This document shows, piece by piece, positions 2,888 through 26,606 of a stretch of DNA of 27,153 nucleotides (position 1 is its first letter; each line of letters starts with the position of its first letter). Below the pieces are notes generated by a model. It made no database searches and was not told where the DNA came from. It saw nothing but the letters and a program-made list of their open reading frames with translations. The translations under genes were made by a program, and so were the position numbers. The DNA is from a virus. The stretch covers positions 1 through 27,153 of the IMG/VR virus record IMGVR_UViG_3300025133_000512; one strand, written 5' to 3'.

Positions 2888-3658
2888 CTAAGACAGCAAA
2901 TCGTCGAACGCTGACTCGATGTCGGCAACGCCTTCCAAGTTATTTTCAGTCTTGGTCGTGGCGTTGTTATTATAGCGAGTGGTTTCCGAATCCGTGGTGG
3001 TTTCGGTGTCACCCAAGGTGTCGTTGAGAACCTTCTCACAATCCTCGTAAGAGGAAACTTCAAAAATGTCTGAAGCGTCTTTGATAGTTTCAAGAAGAGT
3101 GTTGACTTCTTCTTCGGTCTTCGCCAGCTTGCTGGTGCGGCGCATGGGGCGCACATCAGTCGTTGGGAATGATTGACCCGACTTCTTGCCGTAGTCAATG
3201 CGAATGTCCGTACCCTTTTCGGTATCGGTAATGTCCCCGTACTCGGGGTCAAGAACTACATCAAGCAGTGCTTGGTAGGTGGTGCGGGAAAAGCCCCACC
3301 AGCGAACGCCCTTGTCCTCTTCGCCACGAACGACGATGGGAGCGAACACTCGCATCTTAGGCCAGAAGCGTTTGGCTGCTTCCTTGGAGCCATCAGTGCC
3401 TTCGTTCCAAAGGCGGGTTCCCCACTCTGCGATGGGGTCAGCATCACCGTTAGTGCGTGGGCTGAGGACGGTAGTCTTACCTTCGGCACCCATGCCGTAG
3501 TGGTAATACGCCTCAAAGAAAGGGTCGCCATTCGGCGGACAGACAAGTCGCAACTGGTGCGTGCCTTCCTCTGGCTTCCAAAAGTTATCCGAAGAGTCTC
3601 CTCCTCGGCTCGTAAGAGCAGCGTGCTTCGCCCTCATCTTGCTCAAGTCAATACCCAT
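2888..3658 (-). CDS. 32: Single-stranded DNA-binding protein, T4 gp32-like
   Basis: A 256-aa protein with the layout of gp32: a short basic N-terminus (LSKMRAKHAA) for cooperative binding, a core beginning near NFWKPEEGTHQLRLV (25-39), aromatic-rich strands around FWPKMRVFAPIVV and RWWGFS (98-124), a Thr/Asn-rich linker near 216-240, and an acidic tail ending IESAFDDLLS that in gp32 recruits partner proteins. The only cysteines are C40 and C207, so the Cys/His zinc site of T4 gp32 is absent. ATG at 3658 has a strong AAAGGAG site 7 bases upstream and a good promoter behind it (3695-3722). UvsX follows directly. Its role would be to coat exposed single strands and organise helicase, polymerase and recombinase. 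Confidence 0.85.
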   Translation of the reverse strand: MGIDLSKMRAKHAALTSRGGDSSDNFWKPEEGTHQLRLVCPPNGDPFFEAYYHYGMGAEGKTTVLSPRTNGDADPIAEWGTRLWNEGTDGSKEAAKRFWPKMRVFAPIVVRGEEDKGVRWWGFSRTTYQALLDVVLDPEYGDITDTEKGTDIRIDYGKKSGQSFPTTDVRPMRRTSKLAKTEEEVNTLLETIKDASDIFEVSSYEDCEKVLNDTLGDTETTTDSETTRYNNNATTKTENNLEGVADIESAFDDLLS

Positions 3659-4203: not shown

Positions 4204-5070
4204 CTACAGAGATTTAGAAGCGTCTTCTAGGGTTTGGACCGAAGAAGAAAAGAGCACACATAAAATCATCAAATCATTGTAACTTGTCGCATGAACCGAA
4301 TAACTGACAGAGGAGGCACTCTCTTGGAAATCCTTCACATGATCCTTGATTTTTCTAATCAGTGTCTTATCCTCCTCTAGTTGAGTCGAGGGAATTCCGT
4401 AATAGAAGTGGATGCCGTCAATCGCCTCTAGGGGGTAAAGAAATTTAAGACTTCGGTCGTTGTCGAGCGATGAAATGCCATATGTCGCTATGCGACATGT
4501 AGAAGGGATATCCACCTTTGATGATAAGACGGAAGGGCTGTGATTAAAGTAATTTATCATAGCCACTACATAAGAAATAAAATTGGCTAATTGCTTCTCA
4601 TAGTCTTGGATAGAGGCGTCCTCCATCAGACCCTCAGCAGTGGACCGGTCCAGTAAAAGCACGGTCTCGAAGAGCCCCGAGCGAGCGAACTCCTGAAGGA
4701 TACCAAAAGTTATGCGATCGTCTCGTTTTTGTATTTCTGAGATCATTGGACGCTCGGGTGCCACATATAATATATTAATGGAGGCGTCTTTGATGGTCTC
4801 CAAAATTCTCAAGAGGGCCCCGTTGATAGGATGCCCCCCCTCTACCACTACCAACACCTCATCCCCTGGGCGTATAGAGCGCAAATAAATAGAGCACTCC
4901 TCAGCATCTATGTTTTTTTCGTAAGCCTCCATATCGTCCTGAGCAGGAATGGAAAGGCTCCCCCGTTCATCCAGGTCGGTGCCTATCTTGTACACCCGAT
5001 ACTCAGGGTACACTATGAGTTCATCCGCAATGGCACACCCCAAGCGGCCGAATCCGATTACTTTATCCAT
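4204..5070 (-). CDS. Divergent tubulin/FtsZ-fold protein (putative, degenerate GTP-binding loop)
   Basis: A 288-aa protein whose order of elements follows the FtsZ/tubulin fold. Residues 3-19 (KVIGFGRLGCAIADELI) fit strand 1, glycine loop and helix 1. RVYKIGTD (25-32) fits the FtsZ INTD region. GDEVLVVVEGGHPINGALL (69-87) fits the strand and T4 loop where FtsZ has the GGGTGTG signature. INILYVAPER (98-107) fits the next strand. Residues 111-175 fit the segment ending in DTLIVIPN and a long helix, here ETVLLLDRS plus ANFISYVVAMINYF. Residues 190-275 resemble the C-terminal domain, with GIHFYYGIP, a helix, and DLMILCVLF. The T4 signature is degenerate and no clear T7 catalytic Asp pair is seen, so GTPase activity is doubtful. 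The start overlaps the polymerase gene by 13 bases, suggesting coupled translation. The first 35 residues alone could suggest a TrkA-N Rossmann domain, but the rest does not fit that. This is a fold-level inference. Confidence 0.5.
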   Translation of the reverse strand: MDKVIGFGRLGCAIADELIVYPEYRVYKIGTDLDERGSLSIPAQDDMEAYEKNIDAEECSIYLRSIRPGDEVLVVVEGGHPINGALLRILETIKDASINILYVAPERPMISEIQKRDDRITFGILQEFARSGLFETVLLLDRSTAEGLMEDASIQDYEKQLANFISYVVAMINYFNHSPSVLSSKVDIPSTCRIATYGISSLDNDRSLKFLYPLEAIDGIHFYYGIPSTQLEEDKTLIRKIKDHVKDFQESASSVSYSVHATSYNDLMILCVLFSSSVQTLEDASKSL

Positions 5071-6272
5071 GCTTGAAGGTTTCCTAATGTGTTTCCGCTA
5101 CTAATATTTATCTGAAATTCTCCAAAATTTGTAGAAGACATCAACGAACAAACATCCTCGACAAGGCTGTCATCTGACTTTTTCATATCAATTACGATAG
5201 CGTCGTGAATTAAAAAAGCCACCGAGGAGCCGGAGGAGGATGAGCGTAAAAGGTAGTCTACCTTAAGGGCTTGTTTAAGAAATAGCTCGGCAGCCGTAGA
5301 CTGAACCAGATAGTTAATAGCATGATGGTCCGAGACGTTTTCAATGGTCCGCCCATAAGGCGTGGTTATATTCCCATCCCTATAGAAATTCGTCAAGATA
5401 TGTTGTTTGGGATAGAATGAATCCAAACGCTCTGCGGCAGAGGTTGTGGTAGCACTGGAGGATCCATAGAGCCAAGCAAAAAAAGCAACTTTGGCATCAT
5501 TGCGGGTAAGAGCGTCACCAAAGACCTGCTCCAGATGATAGGTATGAACATCCTCCTTCGGCTGATCCTTGCCGAGGAGCCCCAATAATGTCCGGACCTC
5601 TGCCCCATTAAAATCAATCTCAAGAAAATAATCATTAGACGGCAAAACAGCCTCTCGCAATGATTTCGGAAGAGTTAAAATAGGGAAGGTGCCCTGTCGA
5701 TTTGTTAGGCGTCCAGTCTTAGTGCCAAACTGATTATAGACTACATAGGAGGAATTGTTCATCGCTGTGACGTAGCTTTTAAGCTTAGGTACTGTCATAT
5801 AACTTCCCATTTTACGTTGGTCAAGCTGAACTTTGCGGTTACTTATATCCTCCAGCAACATAGAGACATGTCTATGAAATTCATACCGAAGGGGGCGGGG
5901 GCACTTCGCAAAAACATATTCGGTGATCTGGTTTTTTACTCGGCAATAATCCACCAGAAAACGTGAGGGGACTAAATCATAAAAACAAGTATCATTTAAA
6001 TCTACCTGTGATATCTGGAGGGAACGGCGAAACGCTCTCATCTGCTTGGAGACATCGGACCAGTCGTCCTTTAAATATTCCGGTATCACTTGGTCGAGGG
6101 GCTTCCCCTCCAGGTAAAGGGAGGCATAATCTATATCATAATCCCTTAAATAGGAGGCGAACTTCCACGTCTTGCTGATCTCCGACGGGAAATCACCCCG
6201 ATCAAAGATCAACCTATCGTTACAAAAGATGCCTAGGCATTCGGCTTTATCGTCTAAGGTTTGAAATAACAA
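5058..6272 (-). CDS. Family A DNA polymerase, polymerase domain only
   Basis: A 404-aa Pol I-type DNA polymerase with thumb, palm and fingers. FGTKTGRLT (182-190) is the template/thumb signature. Motif A is EIDFNGAEVR (218-227) with catalytic D220 and E225. Motif B holds R257, K261, F265 and Y269-G270; F265 matches E. coli Phe762. NYLVQSTAAEL (320-330) precedes motif C, LIHDAIVID, with H356 and D357 but Ala358 where Pol I has Glu. Only about 100 residues precede the thumb, so the 3'-5' exonuclease is absent or reduced to a remnant and the 5'-nuclease domain is missing. Start is TTG at 6272 with AAGGAA six bases upstream. The frame is shared with the upstream gene, whose TAA lies 18 bases earlier, so no earlier start exists and the next Met is residue 78. 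It replaces the family B gp43 expected in a T4-like genome. Confidence 0.88.
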   Translation of the reverse strand: MLFQTLDDKAECLGIFCNDRLIFDRGDFPSEISKTWKFASYLRDYDIDYASLYLEGKPLDQVIPEYLKDDWSDVSKQMRAFRRSLQISQVDLNDTCFYDLVPSRFLVDYCRVKNQITEYVFAKCPRPLRYEFHRHVSMLLEDISNRKVQLDQRKMGSYMTVPKLKSYVTAMNNSSYVVYNQFGTKTGRLTNRQGTFPILTLPKSLREAVLPSNDYFLEIDFNGAEVRTLLGLLGKDQPKEDVHTYHLEQVFGDALTRNDAKVAFFAWLYGSSSATTTSAAERLDSFYPKQHILTNFYRDGNITTPYGRTIENVSDHHAINYLVQSTAAELFLKQALKVDYLLRSSSSGSSVAFLIHDAIVIDMKKSDDSLVEDVCSLMSSTNFGEFQINISSGNTLGNLQAWIK

Positions 6273-11759: not shown

Positions 11760-14057
11760 CTAAGAGATATTGAGAGGGTTAGTAGCCTCGTTATACACAT
11801 CAACAACCGTCTCGCCAAACACCCTATCATTGACGACAAGTTGTATTGGCTGCCTCATGCGCTGAACTGTTTGTCCCCCAGTTCTCCCCTGTCCCGCATT
11901 CGCCGTAGCTGTAGCAGCGTTGCGCATAGCCACCTTGTCCGCTGCCTTAGAGGCATTAAAGGTGGCTTGAACTTCCCTCATCACAGCTTTCATGTTTTCA
12001 AGTTCCCCAGTACCCACTGTGGTGGATACGGTAACAATACGTTCAAGGCTTGCCATAGAATCACTGGCTGTGTCAAACTCGTTGAAAGCACTGGCTAAAT
12101 CTCCAAGCTCCGCAATGAAAGATTTCATGCCCCCTAAGACTTCTGAACTCCCTAGGCGTGCCATCGCACTAGCAATAATGTCTAGAGACCCAGCAATGCC
12201 CGAGGTTTTATTTCCCAAGGCGGAAGCAATCACCCCCAAAGCAGCCCCTAGGGCCGCCAAGGCGATCGACAACCCAAGCAAAGCTGCTATGCCGGCAGCA
12301 AAAACAACTGCTCCTATGCCACTGTACATTATGGCACCGAGCCCTAGTATAGCCAAGCCCAAGAGAACGATGGCACCAGTGGCAGTCGCTAATTCATTAA
12401 GCCCAATCTCCTTAAACGAACCTAGGGATAACCCTAGGGCCCCCAAGGATAAAGCCAACAAAAGCAGAGCGCCTGCGCCTTTAGCAATATCGGCAGGAGT
12501 AATGGTCCTCATAAAGTTAAAGAAGGCGCTCAGTCCAGCGCCGATTGAAGTAAGGAATCCTGGCATCGTAGGGGCGACGAACCCCAGAGTAGTAGCCAAA
12601 CTAGCGAACCAAGTCCCGACGACTGGCAAGACTGTCGATAAACTAAACAATACCGTCAAAATACCCTTCATAGCCGCCACAAACACCAAGACTTTAGCAA
12701 TGCCGGATTCCGCTAAAAATTTGATGAAGCCCATAATGATCTCTACTACTGGAGTCATTTCAATGACGATTTCCTGAAGTAGGACCTTGAACTTGTCCAT
12801 AGCTTTGGTCATTTTTTCTGCTCGTTCTCGGAGTTCTTTCTGTTCTTTGTTGTAGAGGCGCATCTTGGCGGGGTCACCAAAAAGACGGCTAGCCAAATCT
12901 ACATCCACCCCAAGCACATCCGCAATAGCTTGCTTTTGTCGGCGGTCCATGTCCTTAAAGTTCTTACCCCGTAGATCAAACTCTTGTCGCAATATTTTAA
13001 TGCGGTCCTCGTGGCTCGCTGTCATCATTTCTACAGAGTTCAATTGAAGTCCGATTTGAGCATTAAGTTTGCCGGCTAAGTCAGCAGCGCCCTGGAATGT
13101 ATCAAACGCTTCCGCAATATTAAAAGCTTCCTGAAGCTCCATGCCCAGGGCTCGTGCCTGTGTTGCCAACTTTTTGAAAACCTTGGTGCCCTCGTCGCCG
13201 TATCGAGCCAACTGCGGCTGGAGCGTTTGGAAATCTTTTACCATTTGTGATGTTGGCAAACCAATCTGCTGTCCTAGGCGATCAAAATCCTTAGCCGCAG
13301 CGATGGCGGATCCCCTGGTCATGTTCATTCCACGAGTTAAGCCGTCGAGGAGGAGTCCTGTCTCTCCAGCTTCGATTCCCATTTTGGAGAATTCAGCAGC
13401 AAGTACTCCTATCTCTAGACGAGCAGTCCCGCTATAAGTTGCAAACAGAGTCATACTGGATCCCACGCCGGAAACAGTGCTCCCCAATTCTTCCAGCGTC
13501 ATTCCGAGGCCGTGGGTCTCCCCAGCCAGGGCAGTGATGTCCCCCGAAAAAGCCTCGGTATAGCCCGTAGCCTGAGCGAGGGCAACATTGGCAGCATCCA
13601 AAGAGTGAGCCATTTGAATAATTTGAGTAGTGAGTCCTTTGAATGAACCAATCTGGTCCAATTGGAGTCCAGTTAGTTGGCTAGTGAGATCAATAGCTTC
13701 CTTTTGGAGATCAATTTCTTCTTGTCTAGCTTCGTTGACTTTGTCTAAAGCTTCGTTATACTCTTCAGTTATTTTTCTAAGCCTGGCTAAACGGCGTTGT
13801 TCGCTGGAAGATAGATCTTTCCCGAGAGCTTGGAGCTTTATTTGTTTTTCGATTAAGGCGTTTTTCTTCTCGTTTAGTTTATTAAGCCTCTGGATGTACT
13901 CTTCATCCACCCCATAAGCCTCGGCGAGTAGCTTTTGGGTGTCGCTCAAATTCTTGGCTGCTTCTTCTTGTCGGCGGAGAAGCTCAATCCTGTCCTCCAG
14001 GGCTTGTTGCTCTTCTGGAGTAAGGGGCGGGGGGGTACCGTTGGGGGGTAATGGCAT
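11760..14057 (-). CDS. Tail tape measure protein (T4 gp29 role)
   Basis: A 765-aa tape measure, longer than T4 gp29 (590 aa), which predicts a somewhat longer tail if length scales as usual. The N-terminus is Pro-rich, then a long charged coiled coil runs over about residues 14-130. A helical region with many Gly, Ala and Leu follows (about 150-400). Two strongly hydrophobic stretches lie near 430-500 and 525-615, with repeated Leu/Ala/Gly segments such as LLLLALSLGALGLSLG, compatible with membrane insertion when DNA is injected. The C-terminus, QPIQLVVNDRVFGETVVDVYN, is a strand pair typical of tape measure ends that contact the tube initiator. It lies between the chaperone pair and the tube-cap gene, the canonical tape measure position. 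Identification rests on length, composition and order. Confidence 0.88.
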   Translation of the reverse strand: MPLPPNGTPPPLTPEEQQALEDRIELLRRQEEAAKNLSDTQKLLAEAYGVDEEYIQRLNKLNEKKNALIEKQIKLQALGKDLSSSEQRRLARLRKITEEYNEALDKVNEARQEEIDLQKEAIDLTSQLTGLQLDQIGSFKGLTTQIIQMAHSLDAANVALAQATGYTEAFSGDITALAGETHGLGMTLEELGSTVSGVGSSMTLFATYSGTARLEIGVLAAEFSKMGIEAGETGLLLDGLTRGMNMTRGSAIAAAKDFDRLGQQIGLPTSQMVKDFQTLQPQLARYGDEGTKVFKKLATQARALGMELQEAFNIAEAFDTFQGAADLAGKLNAQIGLQLNSVEMMTASHEDRIKILRQEFDLRGKNFKDMDRRQKQAIADVLGVDVDLASRLFGDPAKMRLYNKEQKELRERAEKMTKAMDKFKVLLQEIVIEMTPVVEIIMGFIKFLAESGIAKVLVFVAAMKGILTVLFSLSTVLPVVGTWFASLATTLGFVAPTMPGFLTSIGAGLSAFFNFMRTITPADIAKGAGALLLLALSLGALGLSLGSFKEIGLNELATATGAIVLLGLAILGLGAIMYSGIGAVVFAAGIAALLGLSIALAALGAALGVIASALGNKTSGIAGSLDIIASAMARLGSSEVLGGMKSFIAELGDLASAFNEFDTASDSMASLERIVTVSTTVGTGELENMKAVMREVQATFNASKAADKVAMRNAATATANAGQGRTGGQTVQRMRQPIQLVVNDRVFGETVVDVYNEATNPLNIS

Positions 14058-14068
14058 CTACAAATACC

Positions 14069-14404
14069 TCAGTTGCGAATGGGCCAAGCTATTCCAGCTT
14101 CCCTTTCAAATCTCTTGATCGCAACATCTAGTTTAGATTTCTGAGAATAGGTCATCGGGTTGTCTAGCCCGTACTTTTTAATATAATTCATGTACCGTTT
14201 TTCGTTGACGAGGGCATCAGTAAATCTTTCTACTTCTATTTTGTTCCCTCGAACTCGGACGGGGATGCGGCGACCTTTGTACATTTTTGAAAGTAAATAT
14301 TGTATCCACGCCGCAAAGACGTGGAGGATGTTTTCGTTGAGTTCACCCTTGCGAGCGGACCCCAGGTCAAATACTAATTCTTCTAGTTGTTCTTCAGTAA
14401 GCAT
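14069..14404 (-). CDS. Small hypothetical protein between tail chaperone and tape measure, 111 aa
   Basis: Not recognised. The 111-aa product starts LTEEQLEELVFDLGSARKGELNENILHVFAAWIQYLLSKMY, a helical start with an aromatic patch. A basic beta segment follows (RRIPVRVRGNKIEVERF, 45-61), then a mainly helical charged C-terminus ending AGIAWPIRN. ATG at 14404 has GAGG seven bases upstream. It follows the chaperone extension stop by 64 bases and precedes the tape measure by 11. In that place it may help tape measure folding or hub assembly, as gp28 or gp51 do in T4, but no sequence match is claimed. Confidence 0.7.
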   Translation of the reverse strand: MLTEEQLEELVFDLGSARKGELNENILHVFAAWIQYLLSKMYKGRRIPVRVRGNKIEVERFTDALVNEKRYMNYIKKYGLDNPMTYSQKSKLDVAIKRFEREAGIAWPIRN

Positions 14405-14468: not shown

Positions 14469-14669
14469 CTACCGGCTGCGAGATTTTGCTTGCCGCATAG
14501 CTTGTTCATGTTGTTCGGCTTCATCTTTTTTCTGTTTTCCCAAACGGGACAAAAACCAGCGCCTCAACACGACCGGAAGGTTGTAAGCCTCAAAGAAACT
14601 CCACCCTCCATAATATTTTAGTTGAAAGAATTCTTCGTAAACACTTTCGGAGTATGCGTCACTTAGGCC
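14469..14669 (-). CDS. Frameshift extension of the tail assembly chaperone (66 codons, +1 frame)
   Basis: This reading frame is +1 to the gp26-like gene and overlaps its last codons. It is open only from 14684, after an in-frame TGA at 14685-14687, and ends at TAG 14469-14471. After the T-run it encodes GLS then DAYSESVYEEFFQLKYYGGW, then SFFEAYNLPVVLRRWF and a charged helix rich in Lys, Glu and Gln. The aromatic-rich composition looks like folded protein, not random out-of-frame sequence. No ATG, GTG or TTG occurs before the GTG-TTG pair half way along, so it can hardly start by itself. It is best read as the C-terminal part of a fusion of about 352 aa made when ribosomes slip on the T7 run. 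Lambda G/GT, P2 E/E' and Mu use the same logic at the same gene position, between tube and tape measure. Confidence 0.75.
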   Translation of the reverse strand, partial: GLSDAYSESVYEEFFQLKYYGGWSFFEAYNLPVVLRRWFLSRLGKQKKDEAEQHEQAMRQAKSRSR

Positions 14670-15528
14670 AAAAAAAGTCGATGGTCAGCGGAACCTCCAT
14701 GTCCGCAGAGTATCCGCATGAACTGCACTCGAATGTTTGGGTTAGATCAATATTAGGCGAGACCGCCGCATAGAAAGTTCTCAAGAACCGTGAGTCTCTA
14801 GCCGGCATTGCGTTAACAAAGCTCGCTATAGTCACTACATCGTCTGAGCCGTTAACCGACACGATGAAGGCTCTAAACTGGTCTGTAAGCGTGGACTCAC
14901 TCAGCTTTTTCTTGGCTTTGCGCTGGGCTTTCTTGAAGAGTTCCATCTCGTCATGACCAGTTAAAAGACGGCACTCAACCTTCGCCTTAGTCATGGGGGT
15001 CTCGATGAGGAAAGTGTTGCGTTCTGTCAAGGTAGCATCGTACTTTTCCAAAGCGTTATCAGGCGTGGTAACGGCACCCTCATTTAGATCAAAAGCATAT
15101 TCGCTTTGCTCCTGGCAGGATGGGCAAGTAGCTTTAGTCTCGTAAATATTGCCATAACCAGTAACTCGGGCACCAATAATAAGAGCGTTTTTATCTCCCA
15201 CTAGTAATGAGTTTACATCTATGTTTTTATCTACAATGAGATTTTCAAGGACTCGATCAATCGCTACCCCAGCCTTGACCAGCGAACGAGAAGTGAGAAT
15301 ATCCTCCTCTTTGGCTGTCATATACTTAATCTCAATGGTTGAAGTATCATGAAGCGGGTGCCCAGGGGGATAAAACTTACCGTCGCTTGGCAATTGAACC
15401 ATCTCGGTGGGCGTTGCCCAAGAGAAACCACCCCCGGTCTGTGCCGTTACAGCAGCAGCGGGAGGGTTCTCATCAATTTCTAGAATATCTTCGTCCTCAA
15501 AGCCGAGGCGCTCTTTGTTTCTACTCAT
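14659..15528 (-). CDS. 26: Baseplate hub / tail assembly chaperone, T4 gp26-like
   Basis: A 289-aa protein of the T4 gp26 baseplate family (gp26 is 208 aa). The family signature SDGKFYPPGHPL (48-60) lies after an acidic, Pro/Ala-rich N-terminus. Two CxxC pairs, C135/C138 and C268/C271, look like a zinc ribbon split by a helical domain rich in Lys (200-215). The protein ends IDFFWPK, a common ending of gp26 homologues. In T4 gp26 helps assemble the hub with the tape measure. Here it sits between the tube and the tape measure, the place of frameshifted tail chaperones in other phages. A TTTTTTT run at codons 285-287 lets ribosomes enter the 66-codon extension at 14469-14669, giving a long form of about 352 aa. 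Start ATG at 15528. Confidence 0.78.
   Translation of the reverse strand: MSRNKERLGFEDEDILEIDENPPAAAVTAQTGGGFSWATPTEMVQLPSDGKFYPPGHPLHDTSTIEIKYMTAKEEDILTSRSLVKAGVAIDRVLENLIVDKNIDVNSLLVGDKNALIIGARVTGYGNIYETKATCPSCQEQSEYAFDLNEGAVTTPDNALEKYDATLTERNTFLIETPMTKAKVECRLLTGHDEMELFKKAQRKAKKKLSESTLTDQFRAFIVSVNGSDDVVTIASFVNAMPARDSRFLRTFYAAVSPNIDLTQTFECSSCGYSADMEVPLTIDFFWPK
14670..14676 (-). promoter_or_regulatory. Putative programmed ribosomal frameshift site (T7 run)
   Basis: On the minus strand the codons read GAC TTT TTT TGG CCT AAG TGA. Moving Phe-tRNA from TTT by +1 keeps perfect TTT pairing and continues GGC CTA AGT GAC in the extension frame; a -2 slip also works and adds one Phe. The short-form stop is only four codons downstream. 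A GGAGG Shine-Dalgarno-like motif (14694-14698) lies 17 bases upstream, farther than the usual stimulators. No convincing downstream pseudoknot was found by eye. Confidence 0.65.
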
Positions 15529-15555: not shown

Positions 15556-16095
15556 TTATCCACTTTTGCCGACAGCATATTTCACAGCGTTTCCGGTAGT
15601 GGTCACCGTGGCATAATCATACACAATCTCAACAGTGATCTCAACCATATCGTCAGAAGTATAATCTAATGCGCCGCCGAAATCAATGCTCGAAATCCAG
15701 GGGTTTTCAAGCTTCCATGTTTCCACAATCTCACCCTCACCGTCAATTTGAGAAATGCTCAAACCAATCAAACCGTTTTTGACCGAAGCGGCCTTGCTTA
15801 TGGTTCCACGTTTGTCCTGACTGACAGGTTCTTGGTATCCCGAAGCCTTGAAACGTTCCATCATCGTCTTGGCCATATCAGGATCTAAGGGGTCAACCAG
15901 AGTTATTGAAATGGGATCCCAAGTCGCTCGTCCGGGATACTTAAAGGTGTGATTCAAAAACACATGCTCAATCGAGTTAACGCTCACCTTGGGCTTGTTC
16001 GCCGTCTTAATGACCCAAACCGGGATATTTCCCATGTTGAGAATAAACCGATATCTACGCTTAGGGTCCAGAGTGGAGTTGCTCCAAAATTTCAT
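15556..16095 (-). CDS. 19: Tail tube protein, T4 gp19-like
   Basis: A 179-aa tube subunit (T4 gp19 is 163 aa). The pattern of a short N-terminal helix, then RRYRFILNMGNIPVWVIK, VSVNSIEHVFLNHTFKYPGR, WDPISITLVDP and ISSIDFGGALDYTSDDMVEI, then a final strand VEIVYDYATV, matches the beta-sandwich of contractile-tail tube proteins. The phrase WKLENPWISSIDFG is typical of gp19 homologues. It follows the sheath by 45 bases and precedes the gp26-like chaperone by 27. The subunits would stack into the inner tube through which DNA passes. Start ATG at 16095 with AGGAG upstream. Confidence 0.9.
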   Translation of the reverse strand: MKFWSNSTLDPKRRYRFILNMGNIPVWVIKTANKPKVSVNSIEHVFLNHTFKYPGRATWDPISITLVDPLDPDMAKTMMERFKASGYQEPVSQDKRGTISKAASVKNGLIGLSISQIDGEGEIVETWKLENPWISSIDFGGALDYTSDDMVEITVEIVYDYATVTTTGNAVKYAVGKSG

Positions 16096-16140: not shown

Positions 16141-19100
16141 TTAATCCTCAAACGAAGCGCCGCTGTTGGTCACGACAAAATCAATGGCGAAGAATTCGGC
16201 AGCCCGAGTAGGCTTCACCAACAACTTAGCATAGATGATGTTACGATCAATCAAATCTGGTGTCGTGGTGGTTTGATCTAGAATCAGCTTAAAGTCTTCG
16301 ATGCCAAATTGTGATTGAACGTCACGAAGAATAGGGGTCGCCTGTTGAGTAAAACGGATCCATGTATCTTGTGTGTTCGGGGCGAAGAGCAACCGAGAAG
16401 CGATGAAAGATATTTCTCGCTTCAAGTAGATCAGCAACCGGCGCACGTTAATACGATCCAATGCGGAGGCTGTCTGTTGGAGAGTCTTTTGTCCAAATAT
16501 CACAATCCCTTCTGCCGGGAACTTAGCAATCGGATTAATGTTTGCTTCATAAAGCGAATCCCGATCTGCGGATGTCAATCGCTTTGACACATCCAAAACG
16601 GGAACACCACCTCCGCCATCAGACAGACCACCTCGGGCAAAGCCAGCAGGCGCAAACCACGGGGCAGCGATCTTGTCTGTGTTGGAAAGAGCACCCAATG
16701 CCACCACTGAAGGTGGGGACCACAAGGTACGGCCAGAAACACTATCGTTTATCAATACCCACGGATAATAAGTAGCACCGTAGCTAGTATTAATATTTCT
16801 ATCCACAAGAGCGTCTACAGCCGCCTTGACTGTGAAGCTGTTGCGGGACTGGGCAGATTCAGCGTTAGCAGTATCAGGAGTGTATACCTTCTGGATGTCG
16901 ATAATAGCCAAAGAGTCGCCTCGGTCCTGAACGGCGTCTAAAAGATAATTGGTTACCGCATTTTGTGTAATTCCGGGAATGGTTGCGGCATTCATTTGTA
17001 CAACTTCCGGATCTGATATTATGTTTATCGCCTTCTTCAGACTGAACAGTGGGTAAGAGTCTTTCTCGTCGGTAGCGGTATCAAACGCTGTCGAAAGACG
17101 GAAGGGGTCACGCTCGGTGATATCGAAACCGTCAGCACCACCATGAAGAAGGGTTGTAAACTGGTCATATCCGGCAGCCAAAGTCCCGGTATAACTATAC
17201 AGGGCTGATAGGCTTGTGCCGGCGGGTCGGTACGCACCGTTCCAGCCCCCGGACTGGGCCTCAAACGAAGAGTTCAAGGTACCCGACACATTATCCAGCG
17301 AAAACACCCACGACAACTGAACTGGGTCCGAGGTCGATAAGGATTGAGGGACCATAGGAAGATCATGGGTGGTTCCAGCCGGGCTTGTTTCTAGTCCCGA
17401 GCAGCGGGGGCGCACCATGTCCTGTATTTGATAGGTGTATGTAGGGTCGGTCGGTGTACGCCCTGTCCATGCTCCCCAGTAAACAGACCCGTTATCCTTA
17501 GGGTTGCCCCAGGTGCTTTGTTTCCTAAGCGGGACAGTGGGGAAATTGATTGACCCACTAAACTGTATTTTGTTTAGTCCACCAGTAAAGTTGGTAAGAA
17601 CGTTAAGGGCACCGGTAAGGGTCTCTGAGTTGGTCTGGACCCCATCAACACCCAATTGTACCTGTGTTATGGTGATTACATTAGCGCCTGGTGAGGCGGC
17701 GGTAATCTTACCGTTAGCAGTGTTGCCGGTGGTGTTAATAATCGTCTCGTAGATTTTGGCAGCCATGTCATTGTCGCTGCCAATGCCGGCGATGCCGATC
17801 ACCATTCCAGTGGTGGTGGTGACGGTGTTGTCAGTAGTGAACACATGAGAAGTACCATAGCTATCCACCAATGTAATCGTCTCCCCATCGCCGATGACGC
17901 CGTGAGCGCCGATGGTGAGGGTGCAGCTTGCGGCTGCGGAGGCAGGTAGATCACCCAACGACAGAACCATATTCGGGGCGTCGTCTTGTCCATGACCACC
18001 GAGGCGACCGAACACTGATGCTCCACCGCCGTCAACCATGTCAGCAGCAGCAGGAAGCTCTGTCGAGGGAAGGGTGTTGGCAGCTTGGCGTCCGAAACTG
18101 GTAGATCCAGAACAAACTGTCACTCCTCGGTACTTCGGCGGGCCAAACATACCGAAAGGAAGAAGGCGGCTATCCGTAGATCCACGATCCACATCCTCAT
18201 CCATGTCCACCCTAATATAAACGGAGTTATTACCATATTGCCCGTATTCACGGTTGCCAGCGATAGAGGCATCATATACCTCGTACTTATCGCCGACGAC
18301 CTTGGCAATATAATTGCTCGAAGCGGGATTCAGAGTTAACCCGTCAAATCTCTCCAGCACTACTGGCACCGAGTCGGTGTCTGAGAGTTTGCGAATGACT
18401 AAAGAAAATGTTCCATACTCCTCAAAGTCTCCTCTTGGAGCCTTAATGTTAGTGATGGAGATTTTTATCTCCTGTTGAGCCCAAACGCCTGCGGTGAGTG
18501 AGACACAGCGGAAAAGCTTTTGCATATTCTTTGGTTCATAATTTGCGGCAACACCAAGATCTTGAGAAATGAACCAGCCTGTTGTGCTGTTCTGGGCACC
18601 GAACTGGAAGTTTGATTGTTGCTCGGTGCCGGTGCCACCATTGACCATGGGCCACACAACGACGTGTGCCGAGGAATCGATGCTCGACCCTAATACACCT
18701 AGGCTACCGGAGGCGTCTGCCAAGAGCGACCTTTCAAACGTTTCCCCAAGCCAATATTCTCCGCCTTGAGCGGCGGCTTGGGCGGTCGTACTAGTGATGT
18801 CATCATTAGTGAGAGACGGGTTAGTGTTTAATACGTTGCGCAAGTAATTGGGCTGATTTGGGTCTAGACTTATTTTTACCGTCTTTCCGCTAGCTACCGT
18901 TCCATCCGGAGAGAACCCAAGGGTAAGCTCTTTGTTGGTCATCTCATACATTTCACAACACGATCCGGTGGTTGCACCGTCAGTGCGGGTGCCCTGTATG
19001 TACATGCGCCCTTCCGGAACATAGAACGTCGCTGCCAACGAGCCTGTAACAGTAGATCCGCCAACGCCAGTATTGGTGGTCTCTAGTGTTCCGGAGGGGA

Positions 19101-19521
19101 AAACAAAGAGTCCCCATGCTCCGCCGCCGGTCACTGTTGAATTGGCAGTCCCGGCTTTCCAGCCCGCCTTACCGGCAGCAGTCGCATCCGAGGATTCTTC
19201 CCCTAGTAGACGCACATAGGTCAGAGGGCTGCTATTTCGTAACCATGCCTGAGCAGCATAAGCGCCGTATGTGGGGGCGCTGGTGTTACCCTCTCTCCAA
19301 TAGTCTCCCGGCTCAGAGCCCGGAATAGGGTTGCCAAACGTCGTTACGAACTCGGAAAAAGAAGCGACTTGGACAGGTACCATGCCTGGTCCTTTGCGTG
19401 CGGTACCGATGACTACCGGTCCTACAGCCCCAGGAAGATCTGGGAGTTGGGAGTTGTCGATTTCGTCAATGTAGACGCCGGGTGAGATGAATTTGAACTT
19501 TCTTGAAGAATTATCCGCCAT
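16141..19521 (-). CDS. 18: Tail sheath protein, T4 gp18-like, unusually long (1126 aa)
   Basis: Contractile sheath subunit. The N-terminus, KFISPGVYIDEIDNSQLP (about 10-27), followed by VVIGTARKGP and a Phe-rich loop, is the gp18 start. The C-terminus has the conserved sheath core: RRLLIYLKREISFIASRLLF, DTWIRFTQQATPILRDV, FKLILDQTTTTPDLIDRN and AAEFFAIDFVV. T4 gp18 is 659 aa, so about 470 residues are extra. They lie between about residues 120 and 820 and are rich in Gly, Thr, Ser and Asn. A sub-domain near 530-650 (LTIGAHGVIGDGETITLVDS, then a Thr-rich stretch and ITAASPGANVITITQ) looks like a separate beta domain. The insert would face outward and decorate the tail. The ribosome binding site AAAAGGAG lies 12 bases from the ATG, a long spacing. 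Confidence 0.9.
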   Translation of the reverse strand: MADNSSRKFKFISPGVYIDEIDNSQLPDLPGAVGPVVIGTARKGPGMVPVQVASFSEFVTTFGNPIPGSEPGDYWREGNTSAPTYGAYAAQAWLRNSSPLTYVRLLGEESSDATAAGKAGWKAGTANSTVTGGGAWGLFVFPSGTLETTNTGVGGSTVTGSLAATFYVPEGRMYIQGTRTDGATTGSCCEMYEMTNKELTLGFSPDGTVASGKTVKISLDPNQPNYLRNVLNTNPSLTNDDITSTTAQAAAQGGEYWLGETFERSLLADASGSLGVLGSSIDSSAHVVVWPMVNGGTGTEQQSNFQFGAQNSTTGWFISQDLGVAANYEPKNMQKLFRCVSLTAGVWAQQEIKISITNIKAPRGDFEEYGTFSLVIRKLSDTDSVPVVLERFDGLTLNPASSNYIAKVVGDKYEVYDASIAGNREYGQYGNNSVYIRVDMDEDVDRGSTDSRLLPFGMFGPPKYRGVTVCSGSTSFGRQAANTLPSTELPAAADMVDGGGASVFGRLGGHGQDDAPNMVLSLGDLPASAAASCTLTIGAHGVIGDGETITLVDSYGTSHVFTTDNTVTTTTGMVIGIAGIGSDNDMAAKIYETIINTTGNTANGKITAASPGANVITITQVQLGVDGVQTNSETLTGALNVLTNFTGGLNKIQFSGSINFPTVPLRKQSTWGNPKDNGSVYWGAWTGRTPTDPTYTYQIQDMVRPRCSGLETSPAGTTHDLPMVPQSLSTSDPVQLSWVFSLDNVSGTLNSSFEAQSGGWNGAYRPAGTSLSALYSYTGTLAAGYDQFTTLLHGGADGFDITERDPFRLSTAFDTATDEKDSYPLFSLKKAINIISDPEVVQMNAATIPGITQNAVTNYLLDAVQDRGDSLAIIDIQKVYTPDTANAESAQSRNSFTVKAAVDALVDRNINTSYGATYYPWVLINDSVSGRTLWSPPSVVALGALSNTDKIAAPWFAPAGFARGGLSDGGGGVPVLDVSKRLTSADRDSLYEANINPIAKFPAEGIVIFGQKTLQQTASALDRINVRRLLIYLKREISFIASRLLFAPNTQDTWIRFTQQATPILRDVQSQFGIEDFKLILDQTTTTPDLIDRNIIYAKLLVKPTRAAEFFAIDFVVTNSGASFED

Positions 19522-25869: not shown

Positions 25870-26325
25870 TTAAACATTAATACCTGAGCCACTTAAGTTA
25901 TACATGGTACCAGGGTTGATACTGGTTAGCGACGCATAGAGAGACCATTGTGATGCTGCTCCACCCATGTTTTGGATCCACACTCTAGAACATTTTACGT
26001 CCAGAGTAACGGGTGTGGTATATTTTCCAGCGCCCTGGTGATTGGGGAATTCTACAGCATGTCCCAGTCCAGTCACTCGGGGGTTGGTGGGGTCAGCAAA
26101 TGCGAGCAGCAGCACGGCACCTCCGCTATTATCATAAGACATTAAAGTGATAGACTTGGTAACGGAAGGAAAGATAATTTCCTTTATAGCGGTACCGGCC
26201 AGTGTGTGGGCTGTGCCGCTCCCGGTCATATAAGGGTATCCGGAAACCTGATAGGCACCAGCACTGCCCAGACCAGGGGTAGTGAACCCTCGACCGTAAT
26301 TGGATGTATCAGGGCTCGTCGCCAT
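25870..26325 (-). CDS. Small beta-rich protein, first copy of a tandem paralogous pair (151 aa), possible capsid decoration
   Basis: A 151-aa protein, paralogous to the gene at 25339-25815. The first 30 residues and the last 10 are nearly the same in both, while the loop near residues 65-75 differs in length and sequence (NSGGAVLLLAF here, LGFSGNSCQLVLAF there). The ATG overlaps the stop of the bS21 gene by one base (TAATG), and GGAGGAG lies at the end of that gene, so the two are translationally coupled. Small beta-sandwich head proteins in such positions often bind the outside of the capsid. The two copies may occupy different sites. Confidence 0.7.
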   Translation of the reverse strand: MATSPDTSNYGRGFTTPGLGSAGAYQVSGYPYMTGSGTAHTLAGTAIKEIIFPSVTKSITLMSYDNSGGAVLLLAFADPTNPRVTGLGHAVEFPNHQGAGKYTTPVTLDVKCSRVWIQNMGGAASQWSLYASLTSINPGTMYNLSGSGINV

Positions 26326-26606
26326 TATCTACTCCTCCGCTTAAATTTATCTCTGGTTGTAAATAGTTCTGTACGCTTCTTATTTATCTTTTGGATTAAT
26401 CTTTTTTTGTTCCGCTTGCGTTCGGCACGGACTTGAGTAGGCTTCACAAAGTGACTTCGCTCCCGCACCTCCTCTACAATGCCCTCTTTTTTAACCTTGC
26501 GAATAAACTTCCTCACCATTTTTTCAGCATCACCGCCGCATTCATGCGCCGATACAGTGAGCGTCCCCTGAGCAGGGCGGTCGTTAATGTTCCTTTTGTG
26601 TTTCAT
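26325..26606 (-). CDS. Phage-encoded ribosomal protein bS21 homologue
   Basis: A 93-aa basic protein. RKFIRKVKKEGIVEEVRERS (32-51) and HFVKPT lines up with E. coli bS21 [20 protein letters not shown] and FYEKPT, keeping the R/K spacing, the Gly, EV, RxR and the KPT motif. A lysine/arginine-rich helix follows (59-80, AERKRNKKRLIQKINKKR). The 15-residue N-terminal extension and RRSR C-terminus are extra. bS21 sits on the 30S platform near the anti-Shine-Dalgarno end of 16S rRNA, so a phage copy could change which mRNAs start translation. The ATG follows the previous stop codon with no gap, and the gene end overlaps the first decoration-like gene. bS21 genes are known from other phages. Unlike those neighbours it is highly basic, as a 30S protein should be. 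Confidence 0.82.
   Translation of the reverse strand: MKHKRNINDRPAQGTLTVSAHECGGDAEKMVRKFIRKVKKEGIVEEVRERSHFVKPTQVRAERKRNKKRLIQKINKKRTELFTTRDKFKRRSR

Follow-up and report, generated by a model that had tools for sequence, protein, structure and literature searches.

We report that the tail assembly chaperone of an environmental T4-like phage is almost certainly produced in two lengths, a short and a long form, through the skipping of one base by some ribosomes at a run of T residues. The stretch of DNA analysed, referred to here as the window, is an entire 27-kb IMG/VR virus record (27,153 nucleotides). The evidence comes from two overlapping reading frames, from the conservation of the slip site and of the frame offset among relatives, from selection on the extension that the second frame encodes, and from homology to chaperone pairs that are produced by a shift of -1. 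We put at about 0.8 the probability that slippage by +1 in the ribosomal P site yields the pair of products, TAC-N (short) and TAC-NC (long). On this reading the rule that tail chaperones come in a short and a long version extends to a very large group of environmental T4-like phages, in which annotation has split off or missed the extension.

The chaperone gene and its overlapping frames

The short form matches PF12322 with 59.7 bits (cut-off 24.5) and phrog_150 with a value of 4.5e-17, and these profile matches identify the gene as a T4-like tail assembly chaperone (TAC-N/TAC-NC) of a contractile-tailed phage. The features of the locus are collected in Table 1. On the minus strand, positions 14682 to 14659 read ATC GAC TTT TTT TGG CCT AAG TGA, and the zero frame accordingly ends in IDFFWPK and a stop codon. 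Read in the +1 frame, the same bases become ACT TTT TTT GGC CTA AGT, and this frame stays open for 66 codons after the slip. The first ATG, GTG or TTG of the +1 frame in the window falls at residue 33 of the extension, in the middle of the domain. The sequence agrees with the first-pass annotation of this DNA on all of these points: it had described the IDFFWPK ending, the overlapping +1 frame with its extension of 66 codons, the lack of a start codon before the middle of that frame, and the meeting of the two frames at GAC TTT TTT TGG.

Table 1. Features of the chaperone locus and its neighbors in the window
Feature	Coordinates	Strand	Basis
Tail tube gene (gp19-like)	15556..16095	-	PF06841, 2.5e-5
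gp26-like short chaperone ORF (TAC-N, PF12322), 289 aa	14659..15528	-	ORF and profile match
Shine-Dalgarno-like GGAGGT, 16 nt upstream of the T run	14693..14698	-	Nucleotide-level conservation in the window's clade
T7 slippery run	14670..14676	-	Kept in relatives
First Phe codon, TTT	14674..14676	-	
Second Phe codon, TTT, proposed P-site codon; followed by the T of TGG	14671..14673	-	
TGG (Trp), A-site codon at the proposed shift	14668..14670	-	Conserved in relatives
TGA, zero-frame stop of the short form	14659..14661	-	Sequence
+1-frame extension, C-terminal domain of TAC-NC (66 codons, 14669-14472, and TAG, 14471-14469)	14469..14669	-	
111-aa ORF between chaperone and tape measure	14069..14404	-	ORF
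Tape measure gene	11760..14057	-	phrog_167, 6e-8

The gene order of tube, chaperone and tape measure had also been proposed in the first-pass annotation. The order itself is correct, but the 111-aa ORF intervenes before the tape measure gene. A tube gene lies upstream of the chaperone in 73 of the 76 relatives with enough flanking sequence. The 111-aa ORF was detected only in L001-L030, a set that approximately coincides with the clade having the GGAGGT motif described below.

The short form and the extension were modelled as two separate parts. The model of the short form has a pLDDT of 84, and its matches in a viral structure library are gp26-type proteins. A fold search of the PDB returned nothing significant for the short form, the best relevant match being the tail assembly chaperone of HK97 (2ob9, E 1.3), and profile searches of PDB sequences gave no credible match. 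The extension is modelled as three helices (pLDDT 85). DUF6760 is weakly matched by 26 of 57 extensions (best 3e-5), and the window's own match falls under the curated cut-off.

Conservation of the slip site and the frame offset

Of 161 relatives on viral or genome contigs, 160 have a YTT_T site followed by an extension in the +1 frame; the relatives keep the T run and the offset to which the first-pass annotation had drawn attention. The first set comprised 80 relatives from viral contigs, one of them truncated (L031) and one irregular (L073), and 78 of its 79 readable members carry the +1 extension. A second scan yielded 69 further non-redundant viral loci, all with YTT_TGG and, over the length that each contig covers, with a +1 extension, and a scan of genome contigs added 13 loci, all +1. 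Scans with the chaperones of XacN1, SP-15 and PA5oct gave few or zero new loci.

The same offset is found in isolates, namely Microcystis phage Mel-JY01 (TTT TTT TGG CCT) and Flavobacterium phage immuto (TTT CTT TGG CCT), and in the more distant SP-15, LIS04 (TTT TTT AGT), GXN1 (TTC TTT CGT) and the 484-kb assembly LR756508, where the site is reduced to TTT C. The Mel-JY01 extension (L082:4734-4970) is annotated as a hypothetical protein; it is the +1 extension of the chaperone upstream of it, and its annotation could be corrected. The exception to the rule of YTT_T with a +1 extension is L073, which around position 2540 has the non-slippery TTC TTC TGG, no canonical heptamer, and an extension in the -1 frame. 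An extension in that frame, as expected for a classical -1 slippery heptamer, was found at no other locus of the +1 group. The L073 junction may be either a sequencing indel or a real switch.

The T7 run is intact in most loci. It is interrupted as TTT CTT TGG in seven contigs and in phage immuto, and as TTC TTT TGG in six contigs and in L123; both variants preserve YTT_T, contain four consecutive T's at most, and keep the +1 offset. The fact that interrupted runs keep the offset argues against sequencing error, against transcriptional slippage and, for the most part, against a shift of -2. A homopolymer sequencing error that splits one long gene has nothing in its favor beyond the T run itself. 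More than 120 contigs, as well as finished phage genomes, contain the run. The offset is common to about 160 independent contigs and to finished isolate genomes, and the zero-frame stop is retained 3-8 codons past the slip site. The conserved offset across viral and genome contigs rules this explanation out, and with it the miscounted T run that the first-pass annotation had kept in mind. Transcriptional slippage, in which RNA polymerase would drop one T or add two within the run, fits the presence of T7 in most loci, but the same offset is found where the run is interrupted and where, as in LR756508, only TTT C is present; we regard it as very unlikely.

It could also be supposed that the extension is a separate protein, made by re-initiation or from an internal start in the overlap. 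The annotation of a separate CDS in Mel-JY01 and the start codons present in the open +1 frame of some relatives point in this direction. However, the window has no start before residue 33 of the extension, 31 of 80 loci lack one ahead of residue 15, the conserved domain starts at residue 1, and the conservation of YTT_T would be left unaccounted for. A separate protein is therefore highly improbable, and the concern that relatives might encode the extension as a gene of its own comes down to the Mel-JY01 ORF, which is the same +1 extension.

Selection on the extension and codon choice at the site

A comparison of the window with L001 gives the extension a dN of 0.05 and a dS of 2.1 when it is read in the +1 frame. 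In the other frames the pattern for this DNA is reversed, and other sequence pairs agree. These values indicate that the extension evolves as a protein in the +1 frame only. Because it is kept in the +1 frame of relatives and is selected in that frame alone, the extension is not a product of chance. Three features expected of a programmed +1 shift, namely a conserved slippery site, a conserved offset and selection on the second frame, are present at this locus.

Codon choice at the site is strongly biased. The second, and last, Phe position is TTT in 136 sequences, TTC in one and CTT in seven, while Phe codons elsewhere in the same genes are TTT and TTC in a ratio of 1012:322 (24% TTC); the Fisher test of this difference gives P=2e-14, which overstates the evidence because the sequences are related. 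When one representative is taken for each of 27 clusters, the bias at the last Phe codon has a binomial P of 8e-4. A preference for TTT holds at the first Phe codon as well (137 of 144, P=3e-9).

Proposed mechanism

From these patterns we infer a ribosomal mechanism, its +1 direction, its efficiency and its function. Most ribosomes would terminate at the TGA of the zero frame and produce TAC-N. A minority would slip forward by one base while peptidyl-tRNA-Phe sits on the second UUU and UGG occupies the A site; the tRNA would re-pair with the overlapping UUU, GGC would become the next codon, and translation would run on into the 66-aa domain to give TAC-NC. The ratio of short to long form would be set by the efficiency of the slip. 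By analogy with gpG/gpGT of lambda, the short form may coat the tape measure protein, and tube subunits may be recruited through the extension.

A +1 slip in the P site, from UUU_U to UUU or from CUU_U to UUU, accommodates both variants of the interrupted run. It resembles the shift in prfB, the gene of RF2, whose site CUU_UGA offers the same choice in the P site, CUU_U in most species and UUU_U in a minority, followed by UG (PMC5009743). The two differ in that prfB has a stop codon in the A site and a Shine-Dalgarno sequence at 3 nt, whereas the A-site codon in the window is UGG and the group to which the window belongs has a Shine-Dalgarno-like motif 16-19 nt away or none. The enrichment of TTT at the first Phe codon is not required by a pure P-site slip; it could be explained by weak pairing in the E site, which has been proposed as favoring +1 at RF2 (PMC5009743), or by a -2 shift. 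For LIS04, the +1 mechanism would need the slip to occur at the first Phe codon.

A Shine-Dalgarno-like element and the direction of the shift

In the window's clade, codons nine to seven before the P-site codon conform to NTG GAG GTN and thereby form GGAGGT(G), a strong Shine-Dalgarno-like sequence located 16 nt from the T run and 19 nt from the P-site codon. The Glu codon of the motif is GAG in 79 of 81 loci, compared with 38% in the same genes (P=1.5e-29, a value that ignores kinship), and the preceding codon has TG as its last two bases in at least 75 of the 81, including cases in which it encodes Leu. Most genes in the window have Shine-Dalgarno-like sequences ahead of their starts, and therefore the host probably uses such sequences. 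Known Shine-Dalgarno stimulators are found at 3 nt for +1 shifts and at 9-14 nt for -1 shifts (PMC5009743), and the spacing of 16-19 nt matches neither rule. Outside the window's clade GGAGGT is absent in many relatives. About half of all loci lack it, and the offset is still kept in them.

As for downstream RNA structure, no prominent stimulator was found, the signal being weak (mean z -0.8, with 17% of loci below -2). None of the known +1 stimulators, that is, a Shine-Dalgarno sequence at 3 nt, an A-site stop or a downstream structure, was found at the site, where TGG occupies the A site. Not every known +1 site requires a stimulator. UUU_UGG presents itself as a simple and widely conserved candidate +1 site that has no A-site stop and would lend itself to assay in E. 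coli. The distant Shine-Dalgarno-like element may be a stimulator of a new type and can be tested as such.

The distance of this element is of interest in connection with a ribosomal shift of -2, in which the tRNA would move from T4-6 back to T2-4 and one extra Phe would be added, with the motif perhaps pulling the mRNA back. Such a shift ends in the same frame as +1, it needs TTT at the first Phe codon, which is the codon seen there in nearly all sequences, and the motif lies farther upstream than it does at -1 shifts. The T7 run and the CTT variants are both compatible with it, since the tRNA-Leu of the latter could re-pair on UUC, and this leaves TTC TTT as the one type of variant that counts against a -2 shift. 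In the seven contigs with TTC TTT TGG and in GXN1, however, a middle-position mismatch (UUU to UCU) would be needed, and the loci that lack the motif, about half, have the offset nevertheless. We consider a -2 shift unlikely. The first-pass annotation had allowed for a slip of either +1 or -2; the TTC TTT TGG variants and the alternation of UUU_U and CUU_U favor +1, while some doubt comes from the TTT enrichment at the first Phe position and from the remote placing of the motif.

Relationship to T4-like phages that shift by -1

Judged from their sequences, most other T4-like groups examined slip backwards at this point and this large uncultured group slips forwards. Homologous genes of cyanophages and of Vibrio, Aeromonas and Agrobacterium phages shift by -1, mostly at T_TTT_TTC. 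A -1-frame extension at T_TTT_TTC or T_TTT_TTT is present in S-PM2, P-SSM2, syn9, C48C1, Vibrio CZ01, AsFcp_2, Mendera, OLIVR5, X1, PA5oct and XacN1, and Vibrio K474 and Serratia 3M also shift by -1, at other T-rich sites. The frameshifted gp26 of the cyanophages, Vibrio CZ01, AsFcp_2, OLIVR5, Mendera and X1 has in common with the window a homologous short protein, a homologous extension and a shift at the homologous FF position; it differs in direction and site, the window's shift being +1 at YTT_T. Several genes annotated as gp51 in cyanophages and Vibrio phages (S-PM2 L176:1191-1364; L180, L181, L185) look like -1-frameshift extensions of gp26 and not like stand-alone genes.

In an hhalign comparison the +1 extensions are collinear with the -1 extensions (Prob 90, E 2e-7). 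A weak collinear alignment (P 2e-4, Prob 21) joins the -1 extensions to the C-terminus of T4 gp51; the +1 extensions gave no direct match to the gp51 C-terminus, and the link runs via the -1 extensions. T4 gp26 (TAC-N) and gp51 (TAC-NC) both belong to PF12322, and only gp51 extends beyond position 235 of phrog_150. T4 and the window thus share the family and the logic of a short and a long form, whereas T4 has two separate genes, gp51 being the fused form as a gene of its own, and the window has one gene and a shift. A tree built from the short forms may need no more than one or two changes of direction; it has long deep branches, and a single +1 group is weakly supported (25). One homologous gene pair with two shift directions at one homologous site amounts to a natural experiment. 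We tentatively suggest, as a possibility that goes beyond the +1 slip itself, that in the window's clade GGAGGT(G) at its off-rule spacing of 16 nt helps drive an unusual shift, +1 or even -2, and that the direction flipped at the homologous site between T4-like lineages with the protein outcome kept.

Comparison with other tail chaperones

Vladimirov, Gautam and Davidson (2022; Virology 566:9-15) reportedly found that several T4-like groups have conserved frameshifting and that T4 itself relies on genes 26 and 51, and Xu, Hendrix and Duda (2004) are said to have covered a wider set of tail-chaperone frameshifts. The lambda gpG/gpGT pair and that wider set are likewise encoded directly ahead of the tape measure gene and have a frameshifted C-terminal extension, and they probably do the same job. 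Lambda, in contrast, shifts by -1, and the window's chaperone is unrelated to it by sequence as far as tested, the fold match to HK97 2ob9 being non-significant.

T4-like tail chaperones are credited to Vladimirov, Gautam and Davidson in the passages on the subject in PMC12846349 and PMC10885494, and an alternative layout consists of one short gene and one fused longer gene (PMC10885494). The Vandenendeviridae phage Adele has a -1 frameshift at GTTTTT in its tail chaperone (PMC12846349). It resembles the window in its short and long forms and its T-rich slip site, differing in direction; the likeness described here is one of site and logic. No description of a +1 shift in PF12322 chaperones was found in the literature searched, which did not extend to the 2022 article of Vladimirov and colleagues itself. 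The +1 direction, its wide conservation and the GGAGGT conserved 16 nt upstream in the window's clade are apparently new here. The first-pass annotation had known of no such shift in gp26-type proteins; the +1 direction does appear to be undescribed, but gp26-type proteins were already recognized as T4-like chaperones, and frameshifted versions of them have been published.

Other genes in the window

A 404-aa ORF (5058-6272, minus strand) matches family A DNA polymerase over its polymerase part, and no polymerase domain was recognized in the ORFs that adjoin it. Genes for UvsX (1753-2823), an exonuclease (772-1728) and SSB (2888-3658) are located nearby. The tail sheath protein (16141-19521, minus strand; 1126 aa) is matched by sheath families only from about residue 564, its long N-terminal half being without a match. 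A 93-aa protein encoded at 26325-26606 on the minus strand contains a ribosomal protein S21 domain (PF01165, 8.6e-8, above the cut-off) and represents a phage-encoded bS21.
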